A stretch of DNA of 64,000 nucleotides from a virus. The translations under genes were made by a program, and so were the position numbers. How positions within the stretch are numbered: the first letter of the stretch is position 1; each line of letters starts with the position of its first letter. Location: the IMG/VR virus record IMGVR_UViG_3300008448_000038, positions 17,199-81,198 of that record. One strand, given 5' to 3'. Shown piece by piece: positions 29,952 to 64,000 of the stretch. The notes beneath the pieces were generated by a model that worked only from the letters and a program-made list of their open reading frames with translations, was not told the DNA's origin and made no database searches.

Positions 29952-30473
29952 ATGGCGCAAGCTGATTATCCAGTTAATATTAGTCAACTTAATAGGAATT
30001 TTTATACCTTTAAGTTGTCTAGAATTCCTACAACAACTTTCTTTTTACAGAAAGTATCGTTGCCCGGTATTATATCTCCAAATTTTGATCAGCCAACCAC
30101 ATTAGGTGTTCCAGTAAAAAGACCACTTGGAACTTATAATTTTGCAAATCTTGATATTGAATTCATTGTAGATGAAAACATGACTAACTGGTTGGAGATT
30201 TATAGATGGATGAGAAATATTGGTAATCTTGATTCAGATTGTACTTATAATATTCCTGAAAATAAATTTACATCAACCGGAACTCTTATTATTCAGAAGA
30301 GTTCTTATACAGCAAATATTACTGCTACCTTCTTTGACATATTCCCCATATCATTAGGTGGCATTGGTTTTGATACAACCCTGCCTGCATCCGAGCCAGC
30401 AAGAGTAAGTGCTAGTTTTGCCTATACATACTACAGCTTTAATCCCGATCCGGGAAATACTACTTTAGATTGA
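29952..30473 (+). CDS. 3: gp3-like tail completion / tube-fold protein
   Basis: 173 residues (T4 gp3 has 176). Key runs are F-K-L-S-R-I-P-T-T-T-F-F-L-Q-K-V-S-L-P-G-I near residue 18, a P-L-G-T-Y-N-F-A-N-L-D-I-E-F-I-V-D-E-N-M-T-N-W-L-E-I strand-turn pattern near residue 57, and a Ser/Thr-rich C-terminus. In marine T4-like phages the gene between gp23 and uvsY with this pattern is annotated as gp3, the tail completion and sheath stabiliser protein. The strand order also resembles the tube fold of gp19. Name based on synteny plus motif; it could be another tube-like protein. Confidence 0.55.
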   Translation: MAQADYPVNISQLNRNFYTFKLSRIPTTTFFLQKVSLPGIISPNFDQPTTLGVPVKRPLGTYNFANLDIEFIVDENMTNWLEIYRWMRNIGNLDSDCTYNIPENKFTSTGTLIIQKSSYTANITATFFDIFPISLGGIGFDTTLPASEPARVSASFAYTYYSFNPDPGNTTLD

Positions 30474-30496
30474 TTTTATTTGTATTTGTGTATACT
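30470..30496 (+). promoter_or_regulatory. sigma70-like promoter of uvsY, predicted leaderless
   Basis: -35 TTGATT (30470-30475), 15-nt spacer, -10 TATACT (30491-30496). The -10 box ends exactly 6 nt before the uvsY ATG, placing the expected start site at the initiation codon. No Shine-Dalgarno is present. Confidence 0.55.
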
Positions 30497-30502
30497 TAAA
30501 TT

Positions 30503-30937
30503 ATGAATTTCGATGAACTTAAAGAACAGGTCGAAAAAGACCTCAAGATTGATATTACCGAATTGGCCCAAGAATCTGTAATAACACCACAGATTCATAA
30601 TAAGTATTTGCTCTTTTTCAAGAAATATAAAGAAGAACTTTCTATGGAAGAAAGAACCATGAAAGTATTAAGAAAATATAAATGGCTTTACTACATGGGC
30701 AAATTGAGCAGAGAAGAATTAGAAAAGCTTAAATGGGAACCATTTGAACTCAATATTCTCAAGACAGATGTAGATAAGTTCATTGAAGCTGATGATGACA
30801 TTATCAACCTTGAAGGGAAGATCGCAGAAAAGAAAGAAATGGTAAATTATCTTGATGGAGTCATTAAGATTGTAAATGGTCGCCAATGGAATATTAGATC
30901 AGCAATTGATTGGATTAAATTCACTAATGGACAATGA
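30503..30937 (+). CDS. uvsY: recombination mediator UvsY
   Basis: 144 residues (T4 UvsY has 137). It matches UvsY in the helices and in the motifs L-A-Q-E-S-V-I-T-P-Q-I-H-N-K-Y-L, K-V-L-R-K-Y-K-W-L-Y-Y-M-G-K-L and a C-terminal I-K-I-V-N-G-R-Q-W-N-I-R-S-A-I-D-W-I-K-F. UvsY loads the UvsX recombinase onto gp32-coated single-stranded DNA. It is followed by uvsW, as in T4, with an 11-nt overlap. It begins a new transcription unit after the gp3-like gene. Confidence 0.9.
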   Translation: MNFDELKEQVEKDLKIDITELAQESVITPQIHNKYLLFFKKYKEELSMEERTMKVLRKYKWLYYMGKLSREELEKLKWEPFELNILKTDVDKFIEADDDIINLEGKIAEKKEMVNYLDGVIKIVNGRQWNIRSAIDWIKFTNGQ

Positions 30938-32420
30938 GATTAAAATAGAAGCTGTTGATGATGCATTCATCAAGATACGATGTCCAAAAGACATCGCTAA
31001 AGAGCTTAATACCTATTTTACATTCACAGTCCCAAATCACAAATACAATCCATCATTTAGAAAGAGATTATGGGATGGTAAGATTCGTCTTTATAACCTT
31101 GCTAGTCAGAGAATTTACAAAGGAATGCTTCCTTATGTTAAGAAATTCTTCGATGATCGACATTATTCATACAAGAATGAAATCAATGAAGAAACTTCTT
31201 ACATTGAAGAAGAACACATTCGTAAATTCATAACAGATTATCTCAAGGTATCAAGTGGTGGAAAAATTATTACTCCACATGATTATCAAATCAATGCAGT
31301 AACACACGGAATCAGGAATAAAAGAGCATTACTTCTTTCTCCCACTGGTTCAGGCAAATCGTTGATAATTTATTCTTTGATTCGTTATTTTATCGACAAT
31401 ATGCCAAAGGATAAAAGTATTCTCATTGTTGTACCGACAACAAGTCTAGTTGCTCAGTTATACAACGACTTTGCAGATTATTCAAAATTAAATGGCTGGG
31501 ATGTTAAGGCAAATGTTAAAAAGATATATGCTGGGGAATCTAAGGCAATTGATAAAAAGATTGTCATTTCAACATGGCAAAGTATATTCAGAGAGAATGA
31601 AAAGTTTTTCGACAACTTTCATGCTGTGATTGGCGATGAATGTCATTTGTTTAAAGCAAAATCTTTATCCATGATAATGGAAAAGATGAAGAATTGCCCA
31701 ATACGATTCGGTCTTTCTGGAACCCTTGACAATACTAAGGTTCATAAATTTATAATTGAAGGTTTGTTTGGACCACTTTACAAAGTAACAACCACAAAAT
31801 CTTTGATTGAAAAAGATGTATTAAGCAATATTAATATCAATTGCTTGATATTTAAATACTCTCTTGAAGAATGTAATAAAGTAAAGAGAGTAGATTATCG
31901 GGATGAACTTGATTTTATTTTTTCTAGTGAGAAAAGATACAATATGATTCATCAGCTATGCAAATCATTAAAGGGTAATACTCTTGTTTTGTTCAGTCAT
32001 GTGGAAACACACGGTAAAAAGTTATATGATATGATGAAAGACTTTGATAAAAGGGTTTTCTACATTTCAGGAGAAGTGCCTCTTGACGAAAGAGAATTCA
32101 TTCGGCAGAAAATAGATACACTTGAAGACAGCATTCTCATAGCATCTTATGGTACATGTTCTACTGGAATTAATATTAAGAATATTCACAATATTGTTTT
32201 CTCATCTCCGTCAAAATCAGTAGTCCGTGTGCTTCAGTCTATTGGTAGAGGTTTAAGAAAATCTGATAACAAGACGCATATGACTCTTTATGATCTTGTT
32301 GATGATTTGAGATACAAGAAGTACACGAACCACACATTTAATCATTTCATAGAGCGATTAAAGATTTATGAAAATGAAAAATTTCCATTTAAGCTCATAA
32401 ATCTCAATCAAGATTCATAA
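30927..32420 (+). CDS. uvsW: recombination DNA-RNA helicase UvsW
   Basis: 497 residues from the ATG at 30927. An upstream ATG at 30876 would overlap uvsY by 62 nt, and the 30927 start matches the T4 UvsW N-terminus (M-D-x-x-I/V-x...). The N-terminal DNA-binding domain ends in P-S-F-R-K-R-L-W-D-G-K-I-R-L. SF2 helicase motifs follow: S-P-T-G-S-G-K-S at 138-145, D-E-C-H at 237-240, a G-L-S-G-T-L motif III, and Q-S-I-G-R-G-L-R motif VI. It unwinds R-loops and branched intermediates and switches replication from origin- to recombination-dependent mode in T4. Confidence 0.9.
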   Translation: MDNEIKIEAVDDAFIKIRCPKDIAKELNTYFTFTVPNHKYNPSFRKRLWDGKIRLYNLASQRIYKGMLPYVKKFFDDRHYSYKNEINEETSYIEEEHIRKFITDYLKVSSGGKIITPHDYQINAVTHGIRNKRALLLSPTGSGKSLIIYSLIRYFIDNMPKDKSILIVVPTTSLVAQLYNDFADYSKLNGWDVKANVKKIYAGESKAIDKKIVISTWQSIFRENEKFFDNFHAVIGDECHLFKAKSLSMIMEKMKNCPIRFGLSGTLDNTKVHKFIIEGLFGPLYKVTTTKSLIEKDVLSNININCLIFKYSLEECNKVKRVDYRDELDFIFSSEKRYNMIHQLCKSLKGNTLVLFSHVETHGKKLYDMMKDFDKRVFYISGEVPLDEREFIRQKIDTLEDSILIASYGTCSTGINIKNIHNIVFSSPSKSVVRVLQSIGRGLRKSDNKTHMTLYDLVDDLRYKKYTNHTFNHFIERLKIYENEKFPFKLINLNQDS

Positions 32421-32423
32421 ATA
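32416..32423 (+). promoter_or_regulatory. candidate late promoter box after uvsW
   Basis: CATAAATA (7 of 8 to TATAAATA) overlaps the uvsW stop. A GGAGG Shine-Dalgarno (32429-32433) and ATG (32439) follow. Confidence 0.35.
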
Positions 32424-32438
32424 CTAATGGAGGTCATT

Positions 32439-33155
32439 ATGGAAGTAGACTACAAGATCTTTAAGTTGAAAAGTGGTGAAGAAATAATTGGCTTGATCGA
32501 TAGTCAGGATGATATGACCATTAAAATTAGTAGACCCATGGTTGTGAAATCGGTTCTCATGGTTGACAACTCTGGTTATCCAAAAGAAGTTATGATCATG
32601 CGTAATTGGCTTGAATTGACCAACGAGTTGGATGTTCAATTGCCAAAAGATCATATTGCCACTACTCTAAATCCTGCTAAGGAAACTGTTTTTCTATACG
32701 AGAAACAAAAAATGCGCGAAGATCAAGAATATCTCTATAAGCAAATGATAGAAGATGTGACTCCTAAGCTTCCAAGTGAGTTGGGATTTTCTGGAATGAA
32801 TCCGCAAATGATGAATATGATTCAAAAGAAAATGGAAGAAGAACTTTTTGGCAAGACTTCCAAAAAGGAAGAAGAAGATACTTCTACCCCCGAACCTCCA
32901 GAAAAGAAACCAAATATGGTTGGAATGTTTTTATTTTTCCCACCAGATATTATTGCAGATCTGATTGATACTGGAGTTTTAGATCCTGAGATGTTTGCTG
33001 AACTCGCTGAAGATGATGCGTTGATTCCTGAAATGGAAAGACTCTCAGAAAAAGAACTTAAAGAAATTGATTTGAGTGATTGGCCGGATGATCCAAGCAA
33101 ACTTCTTCAAGATAACTCTGAAGATATATCTGAGGAAGACTCAGAGGATACTTAA
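32439..33155 (+). CDS. Sm-like-domain hypothetical protein
   Basis: 238 residues from ATG 32439, preferred because GGAGG lies 5 nt upstream; ATG 32427 would place this Shine-Dalgarno inside the gene. Residues about 3-65 (I-F-K-L-K-S-G-E-E-I-I-G-L-I-D, then D-M-T-I-K-I-S-R-P) follow the strand pattern of Sm/LSm-like folds; comparable proteins sit between uvsW and gp55 in marine T4-like phages. The rest is acidic and Pro/Glu/Lys-rich, with an S-E-D-I-S-E-E-D-S-E-D-T tail. RNA binding or interaction with host machinery is possible but not shown. Confidence 0.5.
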   Translation: MEVDYKIFKLKSGEEIIGLIDSQDDMTIKISRPMVVKSVLMVDNSGYPKEVMIMRNWLELTNELDVQLPKDHIATTLNPAKETVFLYEKQKMREDQEYLYKQMIEDVTPKLPSELGFSGMNPQMMNMIQKKMEEELFGKTSKKEEEDTSTPEPPEKKPNMVGMFLFFPPDIIADLIDTGVLDPEMFAELAEDDALIPEMERLSEKELKEIDLSDWPDDPSKLLQDNSEDISEEDSEDT

Positions 33156-33246
33156 AGTACTCTATAGTATCTAATAAGTATAATTTCCCTTGTCCATCGC
33201 GTACACGCTCATTGTAGCAAGGAAAACAATTCTGTCAATACCCCCA

Positions 33247-33274
33247 TTGCTCTTATGTTATTTGGACGTATAAT
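33247..33274 (+). promoter_or_regulatory. sigma70-like promoter of gp55, predicted leaderless
   Basis: -10 TATAAT at 33269-33274 ends exactly 6 nt before the gp55 ATG; no Shine-Dalgarno. A weak -35 (TTGCTC, 33247-33252) lies 16 nt upstream. The 125-nt gap before gp55 also holds a weak CCTTG/CAAGG inverted repeat (33188-33192 with 33218-33222). Confidence 0.45.
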
Positions 33275-33280
33275 GTAATT

Positions 33281-33937
33281 ATGAAGAAAACTAAACAAAA
33301 GAAGAAAAAAATTGAATTAGAAGAGGACGAAGATGATTTAGGCTTTGATGATTTTGCAGTTCAAATAGAACCAGAAATCATAAAGCCTGCCACAAAAGGA
33401 CATTACATCGATAACTCAAAGTTTAATGATGAAATGACAAAGTGGATTAAGAAAGTCAGAACGGCTGAAAAAAATGGCAAGGATAGACCACCAGTAACTG
33501 ACTATATCGCTGAATGTTTCTTAAAAATCGCGGAACATCTGTCCTACAGACCAAATTTCATGAACTACCCTTACAGGGAAGAAATGGTGGGGGATGGAAT
33601 TGAAAATTGTTTGATGTATGCTCACAATTTTAACCCAGATAAATCCTCAAACCCCTTTTCTTATTTTACTCAAATTATATACTATGCATTCCTTCGAAGA
33701 ATTGAGAAGGAAAAGAAGCAATCATATGTAAAATTTAAGATAATGGAAGAAAATGCCGACGATAAATTCTACAAGTGGTTTAAAGAAAACTACTTTGAGA
33801 AGGACGGCAAGCCTGAATTAGCAGATGTGTTCAATCTCACAGAAAGAGATGTGGAAAGATTTGAAGAAAAGGCTGGCGGAAACGCCAAAAAGAAGACTAG
33901 AAAAAAGAAAAAAGTCATTAAAAGAGGTTTAATGTGA
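33281..33937 (+). CDS. 55: late-transcription sigma factor gp55
   Basis: 218 residues (T4 gp55 has 185). After a Lys/Glu/Asp-rich N-terminal tail come the gp55 elements: D-N-S-K-F-N-D-E-M-T-K-W, then I-A-E-C-F-L-K-I-A-E-H-L-S-Y-R-P-N-F, G-D-G-I-E-N-C-L-M-Y-A-H-N-F-N-P and N-P-F-S-Y-F-T-Q-I-I-Y-Y-A-F-L-R-R-I. This is the sigma70 region-2-like core that recognises the TATAAATA -10 box of late promoters. Its target boxes are visible in this window (see findings). The C-terminus is Lys-rich. The stop overlaps the gp47 start. Confidence 0.9.
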   Translation: MKKTKQKKKKIELEEDEDDLGFDDFAVQIEPEIIKPATKGHYIDNSKFNDEMTKWIKKVRTAEKNGKDRPPVTDYIAECFLKIAEHLSYRPNFMNYPYREEMVGDGIENCLMYAHNFNPDKSSNPFSYFTQIIYYAFLRRIEKEKKQSYVKFKIMEENADDKFYKWFKENYFEKDGKPELADVFNLTERDVERFEEKAGGNAKKKTRKKKKVIKRGLM

Positions 33938-34983
33938 AAATAGCAGTCATCAATGACACCCACTTCGGAATCAGAAATGATTCCGATTTGTTTTTAAATT
34001 ACTTCATAGAATTTTTTAGAGATCAATTTTTCCCCTACTTAAAAGAAAATAAAATTGATACAATAATCCACCTTGGAGATTTCTTCGATAGAAGAAAGTA
34101 TATAAATTTTAATACTTTAAACAGAGTTACGAATGAAGTCCTAATTCCTTTGAAGGAAATGGGAATTCAAATGCATTGCTTAGTAGGAAATCACGACACC
34201 TATTACAAGAATACAAATCGGGTCAATTCTGTATGTCAGCTACTTCCAGCCTTTGATAATATTAAGACCTATGGAGAGTTTGATGTTATCAACATTGATG
34301 GAACTGAGATCGCTATGGTTCCTTGGATCAATGATTCAAATGAGAAAGATATTGTCAAGCAACTCAAGAAATGCAAAGCAACTATTGCCTGTGGGCATTT
34401 TGAATTGACTGGATATGAAGTTCTTCGTGGTGTTAAGTTTGATGGCGGTATGTCAGATGAAGTTCTTAGTAAGTTTGAAATTGTTCTTTCTGGGCATTTT
34501 CATCTAAAATCATCACATAAGAACATTTATTATCTTGGTACTCAATACCAGATGTTATTTTCTGACATCAATGAAGCCAAAGGGTTTCATGTGTTTAATT
34601 TGAAATCTAGAGAATTAGAATACATTCAAAATAGAAATTGTATTTTCCATAGAATTTTTTATGATGACAGTGCAACTCCAAAGATCGACAAAATAGATTT
34701 TTCTCAATATGAGAATAAGCTTGTAAAGATTATAGTTCAGCGAAAAACTAATCCAGCAACTTACGAAAAATTCATTGATGGCATCAATTCTGCAAATGCC
34801 CATGAGATTTCTATTGTAGATGAGACATTCGTACCAGATGATTCAAATGATGTTGCAGATTTGAGTGTTGATACGTTATCTTTTATCGAAAAAGAAATTG
34901 ATCAATTAATTGATGTAAAGAACAAAGACGAACTCAAGAAAATGGTGCATGATATTTATTTTGAAAGTCTAGATAATGATTAA
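33934..34983 (+). CDS. 47: recombination endonuclease subunit gp47 (SbcD/Mre11-like)
   Basis: 349 residues (T4 gp47 has 339). Calcineurin-like phosphoesterase motifs are all present: N-D-T-H at 7-10, G-D-F-F-D-R-R at 48-54, G-N-H-D at 85-88, G-H-F-E at 155-158 and G-H-F-H at 188-191, supplying the two-metal ligands. It pairs with gp46 to resect ends for recombination-dependent replication. The start is ATGTGA-type overlap (GTG at 33934 in frame with gp55's TGA region); the gp46 ATG at 34976 overlaps its 3' end by 8 nt. Confidence 0.9.
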   Translation: MKIAVINDTHFGIRNDSDLFLNYFIEFFRDQFFPYLKENKIDTIIHLGDFFDRRKYINFNTLNRVTNEVLIPLKEMGIQMHCLVGNHDTYYKNTNRVNSVCQLLPAFDNIKTYGEFDVINIDGTEIAMVPWINDSNEKDIVKQLKKCKATIACGHFELTGYEVLRGVKFDGGMSDEVLSKFEIVLSGHFHLKSSHKNIYYLGTQYQMLFSDINEAKGFHVFNLKSRELEYIQNRNCIFHRIFYDDSATPKIDKIDFSQYENKLVKIIVQRKTNPATYEKFIDGINSANAHEISIVDETFVPDDSNDVADLSVDTLSFIEKEIDQLIDVKNKDELKKMVHDIYFESLDND

Positions 34984-48149: not shown

Positions 48150-48177
48150 TTGACTAATTGCGAATAATTTTTATAAT
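48150..48177 (+). promoter_or_regulatory. sigma70-like promoter before the fusion enzyme, predicted leaderless
   Basis: -35 TTGACT (48150-48155), 16-nt spacer, -10 TATAAT (48172-48177), then exactly 6 nt to the ATG at 48184. No Shine-Dalgarno. It is one of the two best consensus matches in the window. Confidence 0.7.
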
Positions 48178-48183
48178 ATAAAA

Positions 48184-50760
48184 ATGAATTATAGACAAAA
48201 AATTGTAATAACTGGCGGTCTTGGATATATCGGAACTGAACTATGTAAACTATATTCAGGAGAGGCTAGATTCAAAAATATTGTTATTCTTGACACTAGA
48301 TTTGTTTCTGAAAGAGTTAAACAACTTAGAGATTGGGGAATTGATTTCCATCAAGTCTCAATCTTAGATAAAGATAATCTACAATCGCATCTAGCTGATG
48401 CAGATGTTGTATTTCATCTTGCTGGAATTACTGATGTAGCTTATGTAAAAACCGAATCAGATCCAGAAAAGGATAGTCTTATCACGAAAACTGCTGTGGA
48501 AGGTACAAGAAATGTTATAAACAGCGTTTCTAAGAATTGTAAAATTGTTTTCCCATCAACCCATGTAGTTTATGAGGGGTTTGCTGAGACTAAACTTGAT
48601 ATATTAGAAACAGAGCCTCCATGCCCAGTATTAACTTATGCCGCTGGAAAAGTACAGTCAGAAGAGGATTTTAAAAATTCTGATCTAAACTACGTTATTC
48701 TTCGTCTTGCATCAGTATATGGATATTCAACCGATACAATGCGTCTAGGAATAATGCCAAATCTATTTTCTAAGATTGCATCCCAAAATGGGACTATTAA
48801 GCTTTTTTCTGGTGGCGTACAAGTAAAAAGCTTAGTTCCATTACAAGATGTGGTTCGTTGTATGAAGTATATGGCGGAAAATAATACAATAAGCAGAGAA
48901 ATTTTCCATCTCGCAAAAGAAACTACAACTGTAAAACAAGTTGCAGAACTTTGTAAAGAAATCAATCCATCTCTGCAAATAGTAGAAACTAATGATGAAA
49001 TTCCAAATTTGGGATATACAATATCAAATGCTAAACTACTAGCCACAGGATTTACTTTTAGATATTCTTTAAAGGAATGTTTAAAAGAAATGATTTGCAA
49101 TTGGTCTAAGAAGGATATAAATCCTGCTCTTGAATATATTGATCGTGGTGGAAAGGAGTTTATCGATGCTCGGGGAAAGATTTTGAATTATGAACTGACT
49201 GAGCCTATTAATCTTATCGGATATATCGAATCAAAGAAAGGCACGGTCCGCGCTAATCATTATCACCCAATACAAGAGCAGAAATGTCTGTTGGTAAAGG
49301 GTCAATATATTAGCGTTATTAAAGATTTGTCAATTCCGGATGCACCTATAGAAACCCGTGTTATAAATGAGGGTGATATAGCAATTATTAAACCGAATGT
49401 AGCTCACGCCATGATCTTTACGGAGGATTCTATATTTTTAAATCTGGTTCGTGGTGAAAGAGAACATGCAAATTACGGCATATCGCATACTATTCCCTAT
49501 ATTCTTGTCGATGAAGAAATGAGAATTAAGTTATTATCTTCATACAAAATAACATGTAGATGCTGTGGCAATAAACATCTTGAACGAGTTATTTCTTTGG
49601 GAGAATCTCCATTAGCAAATAATCTGAAAGATTCGATTGATGCTAAAGAAGACAAATATCCCCTTGAAATGAATTATTGCCCTAAATGCCATAATTGTCA
49701 GCTTTCAGTGTCTGTACCACCAGAAAAAATGTTTGATAATTATCTTTATGTTTCATCAACTTCTCCAATTTTTAGAAAACATTTCGAAGATGCGGCTAGA
49801 GAATATATTGATGAATTTAATCTAAATTCATCTACTTTAGTGGTTGATATAGGAAGTAATGATGGTATAGCTTTAAAGCCTTTGGCCGAAAATGGAATTC
49901 CAGTTATAGGAATAGAACCAGCCAAGAATGTCGCAGAAATTGCAAATACAAACGGCATTCGTACTTTAAATAAGTATTTTGATGACGAGGCCGTAGAGTC
50001 TTTGTTGTCTATAGGTAAGGCAAAACTTATTACTGCCTCTAATATGTTTGCTCATTCTGATAAACTAGCGGAAATAGCAAATAATGTTTTTAAAGTTTTA
50101 GATGACGATGGTACATTTGTAATTGAAGTGCAGTATTTAAAGGATACATTGAACGATGTTACCTTTGATAACATTTATCACGAACATTATAATTATTGGA
50201 GTGTTATTTCTTTAAATAATTTCTTTAATAATTTGGGATATGTTGTTTATAAAGTAAATCACATTAATACTCATGGTGGATCGATTCGGGTTTACATCGC
50301 TAAGAATCCGAAAACTATTGATGCAAGCGTCCATGATTTTATTGATGCAGAAAAAATATTTGGTTTAACAAATTTTCAGACATACGCTATTTTTGCGAAA
50401 AAAATAGAAACTATTAAAAATAATGTTATTTCAAACATAAAAATGTTGAAGTCAAAATATGGAAGTATTTGTGCTTATGGTTCACCAGCAAAAGCAACAA
50501 CGGCTTTAAATTATTTTAATATAGGCAAAGATTATTTTGATTATACTATCGATGATAATGCATTAAAGAATTTAAAGTTTATTCCCGGCGTAAATATTCA
50601 AATTCAAAATCGTGAATATTTTAAATCTAATAAATCTAAAGTTGTAATAGTATTAGCTTGGAATTTCTTCGAATCTATTAAAAATAATAATAAAGAATAT
50701 ATTGATAATGGCATTGTTTTCTTGAATATTAAAAATCTAGAAAATTTAACTGATTTATGA
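48184..50760 (+). CDS. three-module deoxysugar enzyme: SDR + cupin + C-methyltransferase
   Basis: 858 residues. Module 1 (1 to about 310): extended SDR with G-G-L-G-Y-I-G at 11-17 and catalytic Y-A-A-G-K at 152-156. Module 2 (about 330-440): cupin of the WxcM/dTDP-sugar-isomerase-like type, with H359, H361 and E365 as a likely metal/substrate triad and a G-D-I-A-I-I-K-P-N-V-A-H-A stretch. Module 3 (about 455-858): sugar C-methyltransferase with zinc-knuckle Cys (C458, C461, C499, C502), SAM motif V-V-D-I-G-S-N-D-G at 553-561, E-H-Y-N-Y at 667-671 (TcaB9-type catalytic His) and the C-terminal Y-G-S-P-A-K-A at 765-771. Together they could epimerise/isomerise and C-methylate a nucleotide deoxysugar. 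Such steps are usually separate proteins. Confidence 0.8.
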   Translation: MNYRQKIVITGGLGYIGTELCKLYSGEARFKNIVILDTRFVSERVKQLRDWGIDFHQVSILDKDNLQSHLADADVVFHLAGITDVAYVKTESDPEKDSLITKTAVEGTRNVINSVSKNCKIVFPSTHVVYEGFAETKLDILETEPPCPVLTYAAGKVQSEEDFKNSDLNYVILRLASVYGYSTDTMRLGIMPNLFSKIASQNGTIKLFSGGVQVKSLVPLQDVVRCMKYMAENNTISREIFHLAKETTTVKQVAELCKEINPSLQIVETNDEIPNLGYTISNAKLLATGFTFRYSLKECLKEMICNWSKKDINPALEYIDRGGKEFIDARGKILNYELTEPINLIGYIESKKGTVRANHYHPIQEQKCLLVKGQYISVIKDLSIPDAPIETRVINEGDIAIIKPNVAHAMIFTEDSIFLNLVRGEREHANYGISHTIPYILVDEEMRIKLLSSYKITCRCCGNKHLERVISLGESPLANNLKDSIDAKEDKYPLEMNYCPKCHNCQLSVSVPPEKMFDNYLYVSSTSPIFRKHFEDAAREYIDEFNLNSSTLVVDIGSNDGIALKPLAENGIPVIGIEPAKNVAEIANTNGIRTLNKYFDDEAVESLLSIGKAKLITASNMFAHSDKLAEIANNVFKVLDDDGTFVIEVQYLKDTLNDVTFDNIYHEHYNYWSVISLNNFFNNLGYVVYKVNHINTHGGSIRVYIAKNPKTIDASVHDFIDAEKIFGLTNFQTYAIFAKKIETIKNNVISNIKMLKSKYGSICAYGSPAKATTALNYFNIGKDYFDYTIDDNALKNLKFIPGVNIQIQNREYFKSNKSKVVIVLAWNFFESIKNNNKEYIDNGIVFLNIKNLENLTDL

Positions 50761-51671
50761 AATATCTTGTAACGGGTGGCTGTGGTTTTATCGGATCTAA
50801 TCTTGTCGATAAACTAATCGAACAAGGACACGAAGTAAATGTCATTGATAATCTTTCTTCTGATGCACATGAAGAATTTTATTTCAATGAAAAAGCTTCA
50901 TATAATCATTTTAATGCAACTGATTATACGATGACGAGAAAGATGTATCAAAATGTTGATACAATTTTTCACATAGCAGCTGAAGCTAGAATTCAAAATT
51001 GTATCGAAGATCCTCTTCGGGCATTTGAATCGAATATAATGGGTCTTTCCACAGTTCTTGAACTAGCTAGAAAAGAAAGAGTCAAGCAAGTCATATTTTC
51101 ATCTACATCATCCATTTATGGATTAAAAAACAAAGCTCCGATGCACGAATCAATGGAATCGGATTGTCTCAATGCTTATTCCTTGAGTAAATTGCACGGA
51201 GAAGATATTTGTAGAATGTATAGTAAATTATATGGGGTTAATACTTTTTGTTTTAGATACTTTAATGTCTATGGCAATAGACAACCAATTAAAGGTCAGT
51301 ATTCACCTGTAATTGGGGTATTTATGCGCCAAAAACAAAACGGACAAGAACTAACCATTGTTGGTGATGGAGAACAAAGAAGAGATTTTGTCAATGTTTC
51401 TGATGTAGTCGATGCAAATATTCTAATTGCAAATTCTGATATAGAAAAGAATGGACAAGTTGCCAATGTCGGTACTGGAATCAATTATTCTGTAAATGAG
51501 ATAGCACAGATGATTGGCGGTAAGACAAAATATCTTGATCCTAGAATCGGGGAAGCTAGAGTCACTTTAGCCGACGCTACATATCTTAGATCGCTTGGAT
51601 GGTCTCCTAAGATTGATGTGAAGGATTGGATCATTCAAGAATCTATTAGAAGGAATCTTGTCAATATTTAA
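50757..51671 (+). CDS. UDP-glucose 4-epimerase-like SDR
   Basis: 304 residues. G-G-C-G-F-I-G-S at 7-14, F-H-I-A-A-E-A-R near 71, S-S-T-S-S-I-Y-G near 115, catalytic Y-S-L-S-K at 141-145 and R-Y-F-N-V-Y-G-N-R-Q near 167 are all hallmark extended-SDR (GalE/WbpP-like) elements. V-G-D-G-E-Q-R-R-D-F-V-N-V-S-D is the typical substrate loop. It epimerises a UDP-sugar at C4 or converts a related nucleotide sugar. Its ATG overlaps the fusion gene stop (ATGA). Confidence 0.85.
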   Translation: MKYLVTGGCGFIGSNLVDKLIEQGHEVNVIDNLSSDAHEEFYFNEKASYNHFNATDYTMTRKMYQNVDTIFHIAAEARIQNCIEDPLRAFESNIMGLSTVLELARKERVKQVIFSSTSSIYGLKNKAPMHESMESDCLNAYSLSKLHGEDICRMYSKLYGVNTFCFRYFNVYGNRQPIKGQYSPVIGVFMRQKQNGQELTIVGDGEQRRDFVNVSDVVDANILIANSDIEKNGQVANVGTGINYSVNEIAQMIGGKTKYLDPRIGEARVTLADATYLRSLGWSPKIDVKDWIIQESIRRNLVNI

Positions 51672-51686
51672 ATTAATTGGTATAAT
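51658..51686 (+). promoter_or_regulatory. sigma70-like promoter of the GT2-TPR gene, predicted leaderless
   Basis: -35 TTGTCA (51658-51663, 5 of 6 to consensus), 17-nt spacer, -10 TATAAT (51681-51686), exactly 6 nt before the ATG at 51693. No Shine-Dalgarno. The -35 lies inside the end of the epimerase gene. Confidence 0.7.
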
Positions 51687-51692
51687 AAAATT

Positions 51693-52922
51693 ATGAACCC
51701 TACAATAACATTATGCATGATCGTTAAAAATGAATCAGCAGTGATTCTTCAATGTCTTGAATCAATGTCTAAGTACATTGATCGTTACGACATCACCGAT
51801 ACTGGATCTACAGACGGTACTCAGGATATTATTCGTAAGTTCTTTGCCGAAAAAGGAATCCCCGGAGAGATTTACCAGTCAGATTGGAAGGGGTTCGGTG
51901 ACCATGCTGGCCGCGTCGGATCTAGAACTGAGGCATTCAGAAACTGCGATGGTAAAGCTGATTACGTCTGGGTGATTGATGCTGACGATTACCTTGAAGG
52001 TGATTTCAAGTATCCCCCTACCATGAATGCTGCTGCTTATGCTCTTACATTTAAGAGAGATGACTTCACTTGGTGGAGAACTCAAATCTTCAAGAATGAA
52101 CTTCTTTGGAGATATGTTGGAGTTCTTCATGAATATCCAGATACTGATAAGAAGCCTTATGCTGTTGAAAAAATTCAAGGCAATTATCATGTCACCGCCA
52201 GAACTGCTGGATTCGAAAGAAACGCAAACAAAACTCTTGTCGAAAAGTATTCCAAGGACGCAGAAACCCTTGTCAAGGCTCTGGAAGAAGAACCAACGAA
52301 TGTTCGATATATGTTCTACCTTGGACAAAGCTACTTCGATTCGCAGCAATGGGGAAAGGCTGAAGACGCTTACCTAAAGCGTTCCAAGATGGGTGATTGG
52401 GGTGAAGAAGTATTCTTCTCTCTTTACCGAGCTGCAATATGCAAGATTCTACAGGCAAAGCCATGGCCAGAAATTTATGATGCATTCCTTGATGCATATG
52501 AATCTCGTCCGACAAGAGCAGAGCCATTGTATCAACTCGCTAGGTTAAATCGCCTACATAATAGACCAAGAACAGGATTTATCTATGCACAAATGGCATC
52601 ACAAATTCCATACCCTCAAGAAGACCTTCTTTTCGTTGATCACGGCATTTACAAGTGGGGTATTCTGGACGAAATTTCGTCAACTGCTTGGTATGCGGGT
52701 AAGCCCCACATTGGTTTCGAAGCCAGTCGCGTGTTGCTCCAAGAGAAAAGGTTGCCGCAAGATCAAACCGACAGAGTCACGAAGAACTTCTTAACCTATA
52801 AAGATTTGCTAGAAAAACTCCATACTCAGCAACAGATGAATGTTGAGGTAGAGAAAGAAAAGGCAAAACTTGAAAAGAAGCAGCAGAAAAAGATGAAAAG
52901 GATGCAGAAGTTAAGAAGGTGA
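51693..52922 (+). CDS. GT2 glycosyltransferase with TPR-like region
   Basis: 409 residues. GT2 start [19 protein letters not shown] at 36-43 and metal motif D-A-D-D at 96-99. After residue 210 come helical repeats with TPR-like spacing ([18 protein letters not shown], then P-L-Y-Q-L-A-R-L). The C-terminus is a Lys-rich helix ([12 protein letters not shown]). Such GT2-TPR proteins often glycosylate proteins or polymers. The gene has its own promoter and its codons are more C/G-ending than the glycan genes upstream, closer to core phage genes. Confidence 0.75.
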
Positions 52923-54652: not shown

Positions 54653-54660
54653 GATAAATA
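54653..54660 (+). promoter_or_regulatory. candidate late promoter box before the 963-residue fibre
   Basis: GATAAATA (7 of 8 to TATAAATA) ends 4 nt before the ATG at 54665. A GAGG (54650-54653) lies 11 nt upstream of the ATG, a poor Shine-Dalgarno spacing. Confidence 0.4.
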
Positions 54661-54664
54661 AAGT

Positions 54665-57556
54665 ATGCCGATAAATTTCCCGAATTCACCAAGCATTGGA
54701 GCTACCTACGACTACGAAGGTATTCATTATATTTACAATGGTGTAGGCTGGGTCAACAAAAGTATTTTTGGTATTTCAGCTGGAACTAACATTAGCTTTA
54801 CTAATTACAATGGTACTGGTCCTATAGTTATATCTACAACGAGTTCTGGCGGTATAACAAGTGCAGTGACTTCCTTTAATGGTCTTACTGGAGATGTGGT
54901 TGGTGTATCTAGTTTTAATGGTTACACTGGTGGGGTTACTGGTTGGGCGTATTACAATGATGGTATTAATAGCGGTTTAGATACCGACTTAATACAGGGA
55001 ATATCAGGGCAAAGATTTGTTGAAAATCTTCAGACCGGACTTTTATATGGGGGTCTTCTTCAAGTAAATGCTGGAAACTCTGCTTATTTTGATGTTTCCG
55101 CTGGGGTTGGAATTATTTCTACAGCAGGCGCATCTTTAACTGCATATCCAACCCCGTCGTTAAGTTATATAACATGGAGTTCGTTTACTGGAGTGACTGT
55201 AACTGGTATTACTTCTGATGAAGAAACTTGGATTTCGATTAATTCTTCTGGAAATTTAGTACAACAAAACACTAAATGGTTGGATAGCCAGTTCGATAAT
55301 TCAATTCCTCTAGGCGTATTGATTCATCCAAACAACACAACCATAAACTTCGCAGTTGCCATTCCCCATGTGGCATACGGTCAACCTTCACAGCTAGATC
55401 CATTTGTAAGAGCATTCGGGCCAATCAAAATTTCTGGCCACGAAATAAGCGCAAACGGAGCCAATTTACAAGTAAATAAGAGCACTGGTGCTGCATATCT
55501 GATTGGTAGGAATTACGCTACAAATCCCAGCAGTCCAAACGTAGTAGAAGATACAAATGCTACTCCAATCAGCACGATGTATCGATACTATAGAGATGGT
55601 TCTGGTAAATTTACAGTAGTTACAAATTCATCCATAGATCCTAGTAAATATGATGATGGAACTGGAACTTTAAATACAGTACCCGGTGGTCAATATACCA
55701 TTCAGAGACTTTTTTTCCTACCCGGTGTTCCAACTGTTCTTGCATCATACTATGGAAGAGAACTATACAATTCTATAGAAACTGCACAAGCAAACATTCC
55801 GTTTGAACAATTTACTGAAGATGATTCTACTGCTAGCCTTGGTGTGTTTGCAGGATATTTGATTGTTAAGAGTGGAGCAACACAATTAAATAACACCGCT
55901 GATGCTAAATTCATCAACTCTGGAATTTTTAGAAATCTTTCTAACATCGGTGGCGGTGGAGTTGCCGCAACTAGCCTTGACGATTTGAGTGATGTCACTA
56001 TAACTTCAGCAGCAAACGGCCAAGTACTTAAATATAGTAGCGGGGTGTGGGTTAATGATTCAGTTTCAAATCTCAACTTAGTATCGGCAGCTGTTGCAGG
56101 GTCTGGTATCAATGTTTCCGGTGCTACTGGATCTGTTACTATTACCAATACTGGTGTCTTGAGTTTTAATGGCAATACAGGAGCAGTTCAAGGCGTTTCG
56201 TCCATTAACGGAAGCACTGGTGCAATTACCAATGTTGCATTTACGAATGTGGCACAGACCTTTAGTGCTTTGCAAAGTTTCAGTGTTGGTGTTAGTGCAG
56301 GATATGTTGATACCGATACCATAAAAAGTGATTTATTGACTATAGATCCTTTTAATTTGTTTCCTGATTCTACAGGAATTAGATTATATCAAGATAATGG
56401 AATTTCCCAATATTATACTACTATAAAGGGAGCAGGACCAAATGCATCTGCAAACCAAACTATTACTTTACCTAATGATACTGGCATAGTTGCACTTACT
56501 AAAAATGTAGTAAGTAGTTTTAACGGCAATACAGGAGCAGTTCAAGGTGTATCAGCTGCTGTTGCCGGATCTGGTATTAGCGTATCTGGTGCAACTGGTT
56601 CTGTTACCATTACTAATACTGGTGTCTTGAGTTTTAATGGCAATACAGGAGCAGTTCAAGGTGTATCATCCATTAATGGAAATACTGGTGCGATTACTAA
56701 TGTTGCATTTACGAATGTAAATAATAATTTCAGCGTAACTCAAAACTTTGCACAAGGTCTTACTGCTGCAAATACGGTTGAGTTTTATGCAGATACGAGT
56801 TATTTCTATTCATCAATAAAGGGAAATAGATTCTTAACTGTTTCGCCGGGTGCGCAGAATTTTATAAGTGGTAATGGTGCTTCGTCAATTATTATTAATC
56901 AATCTGCTGGCAATGCAGTTTATATTGGTGATGCTGATATAGCAAACAACGGAACCTATATTCGTGTAGAAGATAATACTTCAGCCATTGCTTTTAATTA
57001 TAATACAACTTCATATACATTCCCAACAACCGTTGGAAGTCCGGGACAAGTTTTAACTACAAATGGATCTAATCCTGCGACCTTGTCGTGGAGTACAGCA
57101 ACGGGATCTGGTGGGGGGGTATCTTCATTCAATGGATTGACTGGAGCTGTGGAAGGAGTATCATCTCTTATTGGGGGTACTGGAATTTCTGTGTCCGGTG
57201 CTACTGGAACTGTAACGGTAACCAATCAGGGTGTAAGAACTTTTAACGGTGCTACTGGAGACATATCATATTCTGGATTAAGTAGATATATTACTAGCAT
57301 TTCAACAAACACAAATGCGGGATCTACTGCTGGTACTGATTTCGTTTACATATGCACGGCGGGTCTTACATTAACCTTACCCACAGCGGCATCAAATACA
57401 AATAGATATTCTGTCAAGAATACAAGTTCATCTGTAGTAAAAGTTTTTACAACATCATCTCAATCTATCGATGGTATAACTCTTGGTTATAATTTGACTA
57501 GACAATATCAAGCAGTTGATTTAGTAAGTGATGGTTCTAATTGGTTTGTAATCTAA
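54665..57556 (+). CDS. large repetitive tail fibre protein
   Basis: 963 residues. N-terminus contains P-S-I-G-A-T-Y-D-Y-E-G-I-H-Y-I-Y-N-G-V-G-W, the same small module as at the end of the collagen fibre. The body has repeats built on S-F-N-G-N-T-G-A-V-Q-G-V-S-S and V-A-G-S-G-I-x-V-S-G-A-T-G-S-V-T-I, a beta-helical or shaft-like layout typical of long fibres. The C-terminus (F-N-G-A-T-G-D-I-S-Y..., S-V-K-N-T-S-S-S-V-V-K-V) resembles fibre tip/intramolecular domains. Probably a receptor-binding fibre; which host glycan is unknown. Confidence 0.75.
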   Translation: MPINFPNSPSIGATYDYEGIHYIYNGVGWVNKSIFGISAGTNISFTNYNGTGPIVISTTSSGGITSAVTSFNGLTGDVVGVSSFNGYTGGVTGWAYYNDGINSGLDTDLIQGISGQRFVENLQTGLLYGGLLQVNAGNSAYFDVSAGVGIISTAGASLTAYPTPSLSYITWSSFTGVTVTGITSDEETWISINSSGNLVQQNTKWLDSQFDNSIPLGVLIHPNNTTINFAVAIPHVAYGQPSQLDPFVRAFGPIKISGHEISANGANLQVNKSTGAAYLIGRNYATNPSSPNVVEDTNATPISTMYRYYRDGSGKFTVVTNSSIDPSKYDDGTGTLNTVPGGQYTIQRLFFLPGVPTVLASYYGRELYNSIETAQANIPFEQFTEDDSTASLGVFAGYLIVKSGATQLNNTADAKFINSGIFRNLSNIGGGGVAATSLDDLSDVTITSAANGQVLKYSSGVWVNDSVSNLNLVSAAVAGSGINVSGATGSVTITNTGVLSFNGNTGAVQGVSSINGSTGAITNVAFTNVAQTFSALQSFSVGVSAGYVDTDTIKSDLLTIDPFNLFPDSTGIRLYQDNGISQYYTTIKGAGPNASANQTITLPNDTGIVALTKNVVSSFNGNTGAVQGVSAAVAGSGISVSGATGSVTITNTGVLSFNGNTGAVQGVSSINGNTGAITNVAFTNVNNNFSVTQNFAQGLTAANTVEFYADTSYFYSSIKGNRFLTVSPGAQNFISGNGASSIIINQSAGNAVYIGDADIANNGTYIRVEDNTSAIAFNYNTTSYTFPTTVGSPGQVLTTNGSNPATLSWSTATGSGGGVSSFNGLTGAVEGVSSLIGGTGISVSGATGTVTVTNQGVRTFNGATGDISYSGLSRYITSISTNTNAGSTAGTDFVYICTAGLTLTLPTAASNTNRYSVKNTSSSVVKVFTTSSQSIDGITLGYNLTRQYQAVDLVSDGSNWFVI
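56147..56661 (+). repeat. 468-nt-spaced direct repeat in the fibre shaft
   Basis: A 47-nt identical block occurs at 56147-56193 and again at 56615-56661 (468 nt, 156 codons apart, in frame), inside a longer similar unit. A third, shorter copy of its core starts near 56518. This may allow repeat-mediated length change of the fibre shaft. Confidence 0.75.
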
Positions 57557-58430: not shown

Positions 58431-58431
58431 T

Positions 58432-59331: not shown

Positions 59332-59332
59332 T

Positions 59333-59542: not shown

Positions 59543-59553
59543 TCAAAACATTT

Positions 59554-59561
59554 ACTAAATA
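59554..59561 (+). promoter_or_regulatory. candidate late promoter box
   Basis: ACTAAATA (6 of 8 to TATAAATA) ends 5 nt before the ATG at 59567. No Shine-Dalgarno is seen. Confidence 0.35.
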
Positions 59562-59566
59562 TTGAT

Positions 59567-60007: not shown

Positions 60008-62076
60008 TGGAGATACTAAATCCATACGGCTCGGATTTTGATAAAATAGTAAGAATAGCTCCTACTAGATATTCTGCTAGAATTAAAGTAAATCTACCAA
60101 ATCAATCAAATTACGCAACGGTAGATGTTCCGGGGCCATTTTTAACAGATGATGTAAGTGTTGAAAGTTTTTTATTAAGATTTGCATATAGTCCAGAAGA
60201 AACACAACAAGGGCAAATTCTTTCGTCGCCATTTATTGATTTCACCGTATATAAGGGTGGACCTTCTGGTGGATATGCTCCAGCATTTTATCAGCCAAAT
60301 CAAGGAGTGCATAAATTTACTTTAGCCGACAGCTTTCCTTATTATTTTAATGATACGGCTGTAGATAATCAATTAAAAACAAGATTTAATGATCTTGGAT
60401 TTAAATTTTATATTTGGCCAAATTCAAGTATTATACCCGGTGATCAAACATCACTAACAAGCACCGCATTTAATAATGCTTTAATAAATGATATAACTTC
60501 AAAATCAACATCATTTTTCGGAACGTCATATTCATTTGGTACTACCGCAAATATAATGCTTGATTTTGAAAATTGGTTCAGCACCGCTATGAATGGTGTT
60601 TCAGTCCCTTATCCACCGGGATCATTGAGTGGCCTTACAGCTATAGATACACAATTTCATGATAATGTTTTAGATTTAGATCCGGGATATACCGGAAACA
60701 CTCTGACAAGAATTTATAATGGACCAATTAACCGATATGCAACCAATCAATACATTCAGTTATTTAACAATTTAAAAACTCTTTATGGACCTAATATAAA
60801 GTTATCTCATTATGGATGGGGTATGGAATTTGAACTTTATTCACAGGTAACATCATATCTTTATGGTGTAGATGGTTGGACATTTGATGCTAATTTCGGC
60901 AATACATGGACTGCATCTAGAGGTTTAACGTGGGATGTTGGAAATCCTTCTGGTCCATTTAGCAACATTTATTTTTTAAGTAATTTTGCTAAAAATAATA
61001 TAACTATTGATGGAATCTCTTTAGCCAATCTTCCAGATGAACAACAACGTCTATTAGATGATGCTGCCGAGAGATTTACTCAACATGCTCTTATACAACA
61101 GAGAGATGCTTATACTGTACAAGATTATTTGACACCTCAATATTATCAATATATTCCCAGTAAGCTTGCTACAAGTTTTTATCAAAATTTAGGATATACA
61201 TTTAATGCCAGTGGAAGAACTCCCGCAACCTATAGCAACTTTGAAAGATGGAGAACTGCTTATCTAAATGTTGCAGAACGAGTATCTGGAACAACATTGC
61301 CTGCTGGAATAACTAGAAGAAGATCTATATTACCGATCTTTAGTTTTATTTACATTGAAGGATGGGCAACTACTGAAGGATCTGTTGCCATGCCAGTAGC
61401 TGATCAATATTTAAATTTATACAAATATCGACAATTAGGCGGAAACGGTTTAAATCTTTGGTCAGCAACTAATTTTTATTATACAAACGCTGCAACCGCG
61501 CCAATAGTTAAAAGAAATATCATTTCTACTATTTTAGGATTAACTTTTGATGTGGCAAACGATACTTTCTGGTTCCCTCATCTTGGTTTAACTGGAATGA
61601 CATGGGGCACTCCAGCAGCTAAAACATATTTGCTAGGATTATATAATGATTTCTTTTATCAATCTTGCCAAAGAGCAAAGACAATTCTCTCTGATGTATA
61701 TCCTTACCGAGTTGGAAATGCAGAATCTCCAGCTAGTATTTATTTTGAATTAGCAGCAAAGAGTTTGGCCGCAGGAACCACATTTAATAATGTGACATTC
61801 CATGTAAGACTAAGAAATCAATTGACGGATGGAAATATAATTGATTATGCATTCAATCCATCAACCATTCAGGCAGGAGCAACATCTTCGCTTGGAATAA
61901 TACCTTTGGGGAATACTTTACCAATAAGAGTTGATGCTTGGGTAGATGGAATTCCAACCGGAAATACTCTGGGGATTCACGGATTTACATTCAACGTAAG
62001 AAATTACACAGATAGTAATTCTCTACTTGGTACGTTTAATGTAAAATTTGATTATGATAATTATGATTCTGCTTGA
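60007..62076 (+). CDS. large fibre-region protein with a TIM-barrel-like domain
   Basis: 689 residues. Residues about 1-100 are a beta domain. Residues about 115-520 alternate strands and helices like a glycoside hydrolase TIM barrel: F-K-F-Y-I-W-P, I-M-L-D-F-E-N-W (D186, E188), I-K-L-S-H-Y-G-W-G-M-E-F-E-L-Y near 264, I-F-S-F-I-Y-I-E-G-W (E451) and G-G-N-G-L-N-L-W near 480. Two acidic residues at strand ends (D186/E188 and E451) are the layout of retaining glycosidases. The C-terminal 110 residues are beta. Located in the fibre block; a glycan-degrading tailspike is plausible but not shown. Its stop overlaps the -35 of the dUTPase promoter. Confidence 0.5.
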   Translation: MEILNPYGSDFDKIVRIAPTRYSARIKVNLPNQSNYATVDVPGPFLTDDVSVESFLLRFAYSPEETQQGQILSSPFIDFTVYKGGPSGGYAPAFYQPNQGVHKFTLADSFPYYFNDTAVDNQLKTRFNDLGFKFYIWPNSSIIPGDQTSLTSTAFNNALINDITSKSTSFFGTSYSFGTTANIMLDFENWFSTAMNGVSVPYPPGSLSGLTAIDTQFHDNVLDLDPGYTGNTLTRIYNGPINRYATNQYIQLFNNLKTLYGPNIKLSHYGWGMEFELYSQVTSYLYGVDGWTFDANFGNTWTASRGLTWDVGNPSGPFSNIYFLSNFAKNNITIDGISLANLPDEQQRLLDDAAERFTQHALIQQRDAYTVQDYLTPQYYQYIPSKLATSFYQNLGYTFNASGRTPATYSNFERWRTAYLNVAERVSGTTLPAGITRRRSILPIFSFIYIEGWATTEGSVAMPVADQYLNLYKYRQLGGNGLNLWSATNFYYTNAATAPIVKRNIISTILGLTFDVANDTFWFPHLGLTGMTWGTPAAKTYLLGLYNDFFYQSCQRAKTILSDVYPYRVGNAESPASIYFELAAKSLAAGTTFNNVTFHVRLRNQLTDGNIIDYAFNPSTIQAGATSSLGIIPLGNTLPIRVDAWVDGIPTGNTLGIHGFTFNVRNYTDSNSLLGTFNVKFDYDNYDSA

Positions 62077-62100
62077 TTTTTTTTCTATATTTGCTATTAT
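62073..62100 (+). promoter_or_regulatory. sigma70-like promoter of dUTPase, predicted leaderless
   Basis: -35 TTGATT (62073-62078), 16-nt spacer, -10 TATTAT (62095-62100), exactly 6 nt before the ATG at 62107. No Shine-Dalgarno. Confidence 0.6.
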
Positions 62101-62106
62101 TTTCTT

Positions 62107-62613
62107 ATGGAATCACTAGGAATTTTTAAGTTACATCCCACGGTCATGAACCCGTCTCTTGCTACAGCAAATTCGGCCTGTGTTGATGTCTATGCGTTCA
62201 TTCAAAATAAAGAAATCTCAGTCTATGATCGGTACAATAATAAAAGTACTATTAAGACTGACGAGAAATCAGTCTCCATTCGCATTGGACCCAAGGAAAG
62301 AATCCTAGTCCCCACAGGAATAATTCTTGACATTCCAAAGCACTTCTCAGTGCGTATGCATCCTCGCTCTGGTCTTGCGATCAAGAAGGGTCTGGCTCTG
62401 GTCAACTGCGAAGGCGTAATCGACTGCGACTATGTGGAAGAACTAATGATTCCGCTAGTCAACACAAGCGATATTTCGTATGATATCGGTCATCAAGAAC
62501 GAGTTGCCCAAATGGAACTTGTTCGTACTGAACATTTTGTTTATCATCATATCTCTGAAAGACCAAGTATAAAGACAGATAGAAGCGGTGGCTTCGGGAG
62601 CACAGGCGAATGA
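62107..62613 (+). CDS. dUTP diphosphatase
   Basis: 168 residues, with the family motifs in order: S-A-C-V-D-V-Y (motif 1, near 23), P-R-S-G-L-A (motif 2, 86-91), G-V-I-D-C-D-Y (motif 3, 103-109), E-R-V-A-Q-M (motif 4, 131-136) and G-F-G-S-T-G (motif 5, 162-167). Trimeric dUTPase hydrolyses dUTP to dUMP and pyrophosphate, limiting uracil incorporation. It is longer than a minimal dUTPase because of an insert between motifs 1 and 2. Overlaps the next gene by 4 nt. Confidence 0.9.
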   Translation: MESLGIFKLHPTVMNPSLATANSACVDVYAFIQNKEISVYDRYNNKSTIKTDEKSVSIRIGPKERILVPTGIILDIPKHFSVRMHPRSGLAIKKGLALVNCEGVIDCDYVEELMIPLVNTSDISYDIGHQERVAQMELVRTEHFVYHHISERPSIKTDRSGGFGSTGE

Positions 62614-62930
62614 ACAGAGAAGAACTTTTTAAGCATCATGAAGAGCTGTCTCAAACTGCTCTTCAAATCATGAAGAAGAAGAATCACGACTACGCTGGAA
62701 ATAGCGGAGCACAACCATTTGCAAATTTTGAACGATGTGAAGCAATGGGTATTTGCAGCACAGAACAAGGATTTCTTGTCCGTATCACAGATAAGGTATC
62801 TCGCCTGAGTACCTTTGCAAATGCGGGAAAACTAGTAGTCGATAACGAAGGTTATCAGGACGCAATTCTAGACATCATGAACTATTGTGTTCTATTCTCG
62901 GCTTATATAAAGTCAAAGGATGATGCTTGA
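62610..62930 (+). CDS. DUF1599-like nucleotide modification-associated protein
   Basis: 106 residues, mostly helical. K-N-H-D-Y-A-G-N-S-G near residue 24 and F-E-R-C-E-A-M-G, then R-I-T-D-K-V-S-R-L-S near 64 and D-A-I-L-D-I-M-N-Y near 88 match the DUF1599/Nmad1 family, nucleotide-modification-associated proteins often found in phages beside thymidylate or dUTP enzymes. Here it overlaps dUTPase. Function unproven. Confidence 0.6.
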   Translation: MNREELFKHHEELSQTALQIMKKKNHDYAGNSGAQPFANFERCEAMGICSTEQGFLVRITDKVSRLSTFANAGKLVVDNEGYQDAILDIMNYCVLFSAYIKSKDDA

Positions 62931-62954
62931 TTTGTGTTCAACTGCCAGTATAAT
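62927..62954 (+). promoter_or_regulatory. sigma70-like promoter of gp43, predicted leaderless
   Basis: -35 TTGATT (62927-62932), 16-nt spacer, -10 TATAAT (62949-62954), exactly 6 nt before the gp43 ATG at 62961. No Shine-Dalgarno. The -35 lies inside the stop of the preceding gene. Confidence 0.65.
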
Positions 62955-62960
62955 CGATAC

Positions 62961-64000
62961 ATGAACTTTTACACATGTGTTGAGATTCGCGGCAACAAGA
63001 TTCTTTATAGAGGGGTGGAAGATGGGAGTCGGGTCTGTAGGGAAATTCCTTACAGACCCACTCTTTATTCCTATACCCACAAATCTTCTGACTGGAAGAC
63101 GCTTGATGGCCGTGCGGTAGAACCAATCAAGCCCGGTACAATCACAGAGACTAGGGATTTTTTAGATCAGTATGCTAATATCTCTGGGTTCTCTATCTTT
63201 GGTCAAACAGATTTCATTTACCAGTTTATTGGTGAAGAATTTCCCAATGATATCGATTACAAGATCGATCAAATCGTTACAGCCTTTATCGATATCGAAA
63301 CCAAGTGTGAGGCTGGATTTCCGAACATCGAAACTGCCAATGAACAGGTGATTGCGATCACCGTGCGGATCAAGAACAAGTCTTATGTCTATGGTTTAGG
63401 CACTTTCCATATTGATAATCCAAATGTCAGTTGCAATCAGTATGACAATGAAAACCAAATGCTTAAGGACTTTATTGAGTTTTGGGAGCAACAGAAGCCT
63501 GACATTGTAACTGGATGGAACGTCAGATTCTTCGATATTCCATATCTTTATAATCGAATTTCTTACCTGTTTGGAGAAGATACGGCCAATCGCCTATCCC
63601 CTTGGAAGAAAGTCATCAAGAAGAAGATTGAAACTAAGTCATCTCGCGGGGAGCAAACTGCGTGTGATATTATTGGCGTATCTACTCTAGACTACTACGA
63701 GTTGTATAAGAAGTTTACCTATACCAATCAGGAATCTTATCGACTGGATTATATTGCCTCCGTCGAACTAGGTGAAAAGAAGCTTTCATATGATGAGTAT
63801 GACAGCTTGCGAGAGTTCTACAAGCAAGACTTCAATAAGTTTATTCACTATAACTTCCATGACGTAGAACTTGTCTTTAAGTTAGATCAAAAGATGAAGT
63901 TGATTGAACTCGTTCTTGCAGTGGCATATTCTGCCAAGGTAAATCATGAGGATGTTTATAGCCAAGTTCGAACTTGGGATACCATCATTTACCACGAACT
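62961..64000 (+). CDS. 43: DNA polymerase gp43 (5' part, runs off the window)
   Basis: The first 346 codons are open to the window edge. Family B polymerase with 3'-5' exonuclease: ExoI F-I-D-I-E-T with D111 and E113 (T4 D112, E114), ExoII-like W-N-V-R-F-F-D-I-P-Y, and S-T-L-D-Y-Y-E-L-Y-K-K-F-T-Y-T-N matching T4 'SILDYLDLYKKFAFTN', then ExoIII-type Y-N-F-H-D-V-E. Replicative polymerase of the phage. In T4 it follows regA directly; here the two are about 23 kb apart. Confidence 0.95.
   Translation, partial: MNFYTCVEIRGNKILYRGVEDGSRVCREIPYRPTLYSYTHKSSDWKTLDGRAVEPIKPGTITETRDFLDQYANISGFSIFGQTDFIYQFIGEEFPNDIDYKIDQIVTAFIDIETKCEAGFPNIETANEQVIAITVRIKNKSYVYGLGTFHIDNPNVSCNQYDNENQMLKDFIEFWEQQKPDIVTGWNVRFFDIPYLYNRISYLFGEDTANRLSPWKKVIKKKIETKSSRGEQTACDIIGVSTLDYYELYKKFTYTNQESYRLDYIASVELGEKKLSYDEYDSLREFYKQDFNKFIHYNFHDVELVFKLDQKMKLIELVLAVAYSAKVNHEDVYSQVRTWDTIIYHE

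Follow-up and report, generated by a model that had tools for sequence, protein, structure and literature searches.

It is suggested here that six sigma70-type promoters of an aquatic T4-like phage, together with the promoters that lie close to start codons in its relatives, very probably give rise to leaderless mRNAs, with the transcript start (+1) deduced from promoter sequence. Leaderless transcripts had been predicted by a first-pass annotation of this DNA, and that prediction is now supported by enrichment of the spacing, by two separate promoter registers, by the absence of a Shine-Dalgarno (SD) sequence where the promoter is near the ATG, by a pyrimidine at -1 and by conservation of linker length among orthologs. 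The window, meaning the whole 64-kb stretch that was analysed, comprises bases 17199-81198 of an 81,198-base IMG/VR virus contig and carries a T4-like gene set (uvsY, a uvsW-like helicase, gp55, gp23, gp19, dUTPase and gp43). A near-match DNA search of a phage collection with the window gave no match. Judged by gp55 and uvsY, the closest named relatives of the phage are Pelagibacter phage HTVC008M, Methylophilales phage Melnitz and cyanophages, none of which exceeds about 62% protein identity, and the best named matches belong to the Kyanoviridae in this comparison of two proteins from a possibly incomplete contig.

The six -10 boxes had been described as ending exactly 6 nt 5' of an ATG, and their coordinates bear this out in every case (Table 1), as they do the -35 boxes and the 15-17 nt spacings, the TTGCTC of gp55 being weak. 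It is also correct that these starts lack an SD, since a match of at least 4 nt is found at 0 of 6. The accompanying statement that most genes inside operons have an SD or overlap the gene before them stands only in part: SD matches at internal genes are above chance, but a strong SD is absent from many of them too. Among 70 curated starts, a TATAAT-type hexamer with at most one mismatch occurs at a distance of 6 in six cases, and at any other distance in 0-3. Dinucleotide shuffles of the genome's own upstream regions gave a mean of 0.74 and a maximum of 4 at this distance, and none of 500 reached six. The intergenic gaps at these promoters measure 21-41 nt in five of the six. At three junctions (uvsY, dUTPase and gp43) the -35 box contains the TGA stop of the gene before it, as T[TGA]TT, and the gap of 29-30 nt consists of the tail of the -35, the -10, six bases and the ATG, and nothing else.

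Table 1. Promoters lying close to start codons in the window, and stop codons embedded in -35 boxes (window coordinates)
Feature	Positions	Strand	-35 box	Spacing (nt)	-10 box or late element	Distance to ATG (nt)	ATG	Remarks
uvsY promoter	30470..30505	+	TTGATT 30470-30475	15	TATACT 30491-30496	6	30503	linker TAAATT
gp55 promoter	33247..33283	+	TTGCTC (weak)	16	TATAAT 33269-33274	6	33281	linker GTAATT
SDR-cupin-methyltransferase promoter	48150..48186	+	TTGACT	16	TATAAT 48172-48177	6	48184	
GT2-TPR promoter	51658..51695	+	TTGTCA	17	TATAAT 51681-51686	6	51693	
dUTPase promoter	62073..62109	+	TTGATT	16	TATTAT 62095-62100	6	62107	
gp43 (DNA polymerase) promoter	62927..62963	+	TTGATT	16	TATAAT 62949-62954	6	62961	
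Embedded TGA stop, uvsY	30471-30473	+	TTGATT 30470-30475					
Embedded TGA stop, dUTPase	62074-62076	+	TTGATT 62073-62078					
Embedded TGA stop, gp43	62928-62930	+	TTGATT 62927-62932					
Late-type promoter	3997..4013	+			AATAAATA	6	4011	
Late-type promoter, head-tail adaptor	8088..8103	+			CATACATA	5	8101	
Late-type promoter, tail sheath	20308..20322	+			AATAAATA	4	20320	
Late-type promoter, tail tube gp19	29940..29954	+			TATACATA	4	29952	
Late-type element	32416..32441	+			CATAAATA	3 or 15	32427 or 32439	start ambiguous; GGAGG within the 15 nt
Late-type promoter, tail fibre	54653..54667	+			GATAAATA	4	54665	GAGG inside element, ambiguous

In order to place these distances in a wider context, promoter-to-ATG spacing was compared between 13 related genomes or contigs (stitched) and six pooled controls (T4, RB49, S-PM2, Syn9, P-HM2 and P-SSM4). 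Gene starts were called mechanically and each protein family was counted once per distance. Sigma70-type promoters were sought as a TTG -35, 15-18 nt spacing and TATAAT with at most one mismatch, and late promoters as ATAAATA. The first-pass annotation had proposed that the 6-nt spacing be compared with shuffled controls, genome-wide and in relatives, and the enrichment proved strong in the relatives as it had in the shuffles. Sigma70-type promoters of the 13 relatives peak at a distance of 6, with 14 gene families against a background of 1.67 per position and a single family in the six controls. Late elements of the same relatives peak at a distance of 5, with 28 families against a background of 1.91, the corresponding control values being 3 and 2.5. 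The pooled controls have no peak at 6 for sigma70-type or at 5 for late promoters, and their promoters mostly lie about 17-30 nt away. In T4 and RB49 the late octamer is found 3-7 nt from an ATG in no case, and the earlier remark that the pattern is not standard for T4-like phages holds in the contrast with these two. The peaks at 6 and 5 both make the A of the ATG the +1 position, because the T of a sigma70-type -10 lies at -7 and the late octamer of T4 extends from -13 to -6 (PMC1524935).

The pattern is not a rule of the family as a whole, and this reading was rejected: S-PM2, Syn9 and P-HM2 have no clear peak and P-SSM4 has only two to three late sites. In the cultured Pelagibacter phage HTVC008M the late elements of eight genes lie at a distance of 5, with 0-2 at other distances; in its record the eight genes are at 6280, 7562, 19456, 31132, 49760 and 142360 on the + strand and at 16007 and 18916 on the - strand. 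Neither HTVC008M nor Melnitz has a sigma70-type peak at 6; their sites are at 10-12 nt (HTVC008M) and at 7, 8 and 13 nt (Melnitz). HTVC008M therefore has the late peak without the sigma70-type peak, and the two halves of the pattern do not always occur together. Several of these more distant sigma70-type promoters in the two phages are without an SD, which suggests that they may produce very short leaders.

The presence of an SD differs between near and far promoters. In the 13 relatives, near sigma70-type promoters belong to 2 families with an SD and 20 without, and far ones to 23 with and 13 without (P = 4e-5), while the late families number 4 with and 41 without when near and 34 with and 10 without when far (P = 2e-11), both P values treating families as independent although clades share ancestry. 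This division was not seen in the six control phages. The standard T4 head, in which an SD-bearing leader separates the late element from the ATG, is retained by gp23, but it does not describe the near late class, as the 4 families with and 41 without an SD make plain. RNA polymerases tend to start at a purine (+1) that follows a pyrimidine (-1), and a pyrimidine directly 5' of the ATG is thus to be expected if the RNA starts at its A. Such a pyrimidine is present at 50 of 55 leaderless-type sites, compared with 49% of other starts (P = 1e-10). The start codon is ATG, and not GTG or TTG, at 66 of 67 leaderless-type sites, against 71% of candidate starts, a baseline that includes false starts.

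Late-type promoters of the window, which the first-pass annotation had missed, also end 3-6 nt 5' of ATGs (Table 1), and late promoters display the effect more markedly than the sigma70-type class. Like T4-type late promoters they have an (N)ATAAATA element, and the same genome encodes a gp55 homologue. In the window's own clade the late elements lie 3-6 nt from the ATG, mostly 4, with no sharp preference for 5, and some of them read ATACATA. A terminator-like hairpin (29916-29930) stands directly 5' of the gp19 late promoter, and the block of hairpin, late promoter and ATG is kept in relatives in which the letters of the hairpin differ. Relatives of the gene with alternative starts at 32427 and 32439 begin at the second ATG.

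Analysis of orthologs helps to separate the length of the linker from its sequence. The gp55 gene was found in 80 viral contigs, and in those about 65% identical its upstream region reads TTGATT, TATTAT, six variable bases and ATG, so that the distance of 6 is kept and the -35 is better than the window's own. Orthologs of uvsY keep the 6-nt distance with varying linker letters, those of gp43 keep it with other linkers at 67% protein identity, and dUTPase relatives have TAAACT or TATTAT at a distance of 6. The GT2-TPR promoter is less constrained, because relatives show spacings of 6, 8 or 9, or have the gene within an operon and behind an SD. Among distinct upstream regions of uvsY and gp55, an SD is found in 0 of the 52 that have a -10 at 5-9 nt, and in 28 of the 34 whose -10 is distant (15-23 nt); the alternative state in these orthologs is a leader of about 17 nt with an SD. 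The two states are swapped between clades, some combining a leaderless-type gp55 with an SD-led uvsY and others the opposite. The proposal that leaderless initiation is a rule of operon heads must accordingly be narrowed: it is not universal, as many heads keep an SD leader and orthologs switch.

It could be argued that compaction alone has produced this arrangement, promoters having been packed as near to the next gene as the polymerase allows and the leaderless mRNA being an unselected by-product. The short gaps and the stop codons embedded in three -35 boxes agree with such a view, and genome compaction is likely to be part of the cause. As the whole explanation it is a lesser possibility, however, since SD leaders are retained at many heads of these genomes, since orthologs jump to the leader of about 17 nt without drifting through intermediate lengths, and since T4 is also compact and yet does not show the arrangement. 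A further possibility is that the start site is not fixed and that the majority of transcripts start slightly 5' of the ATG, with leaders of 1-5 nt. Polymerases can shift their start by a few nt, some genes have spacings of 7-9 and the late elements of the window's own clade are spread over 3-6 nt, but the A of the ATG is indicated by the sharp single-base peaks in two promoter classes and by the pyrimidine at -1, and a prevalence of such short leaders is improbable. A leader of 1-5 nt would in any case be too short to hold an SD, and its consequence would be nearly the same as that of no leader.

The late-type case at 32427 and 32439 is what would be expected if start codons had been misassigned and the true starts lay downstream behind an SD. 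As a general explanation this is very unlikely, as alignments of uvsY (about 50-75% identity) start with the first residue whether the form is leaderless or leadered, and gp43 and dUTPase likewise align from residue 1. The GC content of about 36% and the many promoter-like sites that arise by chance raise the question of whether an AT-rich genome simply yields TATAAT-like hexamers near ATGs, from which six were picked by the reader. Individual sites could be due to chance, but for the set as a whole chance is refuted by the shuffles, the shift background, the counts by family, the comparison with controls of similar GC such as T4, and orthologs with altered linkers, and the probability left to it is negligible.

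If the leaderless reading is correct, host RNA polymerase, carrying either its sigma70-type factor or the late factor gp55 of the phage, would begin transcription at the A of the ATG. Because of this the predicted mRNA would have neither a 5' untranslated region nor an SD, and the ribosome would presumably attach straight to the 5'-terminal AUG. Transcripts would then have two kinds of head side by side, one leaderless, with gaps of about 30 nt that hold only the -35, the -10 and the ATG, and one leadered, with the promoter about 13-30 nt upstream and an SD. Read-through from upstream promoters could provide the same genes with leadered copies. The benefit may be compactness, or priority when the state of the ribosome or initiation factors favours leaderless mRNA. 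A more elaborate scheme, which we regard as speculative and rather unlikely, is that of two-track translation, in which particular operons for replication and structure have leaderless heads and the rest have SD-led ones, the state of the ribosome or initiation factors during infection sets the favoured track, and genes move between tracks in evolution. A ribosome change encoded by the phages themselves was considered and rejected. Only HTVC008M (91237-91392) and Melnitz (35461-35619) have a gene for ribosomal protein S21, which was not found in the window's contig or the related contigs searched; no IF3 homologue was found in the genomes searched, the contigs in both searches being possibly incomplete. 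S21 lies close to the anti-SD end of 16S rRNA and might have a part in the choice between leaderless and SD-led initiation.

On sequence grounds a SAR11-type bacterium, possibly a freshwater one, is a plausible host of this phage, because 79 of the best 80 bacterial matches to the SDR-cupin-methyltransferase fusion (48184-50760, 858 aa) are Pelagibacteraceae/Pelagibacterales genes, at 55-60% identity. Its closest match among cellular records (65%) is on a 73.8-kb contig in the Patescibacteria MAG UBA2135, which is possibly a misbinned phage or SAR11 contig. The idea that the phages mirror their host was rejected on the basis of ten marine SAR11 genomes. In these the 6-nt spacing occurs at 22 sites and the 10-nt spacing at 19 (4 and 11, respectively, in reversed-pattern controls), and as there is no clear 6-nt excess a preference for leaderless genes may be lacking in the likely hosts.

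Leaderless mRNAs are already known from phages, the classic example being the cI mRNA of lambda transcribed from PRM. That case concerns one gene of a temperate phage, whereas the architecture described here is repeated across the genome and the clade. Lambda is also named by Zheng et al. 2011 (PMC3160421), whose TA-led bacterial genes have TANNNT about 12 bp 5' of the start codon and no SD, and were interpreted as leaderless. The near sites of the window phage have the same layout, with the first base of the -10 about 12 bp 5' of the start codon above chance, no SD and AUG, although that survey was one of cellular genomes (PMC3160421). In phiYS40, a lytic tailed phage of Thermus thermophilus, most middle and late mRNAs are leaderless (PMC3594737), and leaderless genes are common in the phylum of its host (PMC3160421). 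The two phages are unrelated, that of the window being T4-like, with sigma70-type and gp55-type promoters and with leaderless-type heads mixed among SD-led ones. Late promoters of T4 (TATAAATA) have the same octamer, and gp55 is present in the window phage, but in T4 and RB49 the octamer sits about 12-30 nt from the ATG, whereas in the window phage and its relatives a large class lies at 3-7 nt with no SD. No earlier report of leaderless transcripts in T4-like or pelagic phages was found in the library of papers searched, which covered few of those under subscription. Leaderless phage mRNAs and the bacterial TA-signal argument are thus known already, and what appears to be new is their extension to T4-like phages.

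T4-like phages are usually taken to start translation from SD leaders, and the pattern points to a second, leaderless translation start in a very abundant phage group. If this is true, phages of SAR11-type bacteria included, changes are needed in gene callers, in promoter finders that require a leader and in models of phage translation. HTVC008M, which is in culture and has eight predicted late genes of this type, allows a direct test, and orthologs that swap between the two states, leaderless and SD-led, amount to a natural experiment from which to learn what makes a gene use either. Elsewhere in the window, the tail fibre gene at 52924-54651 contains many collagen-like triplet repeats.
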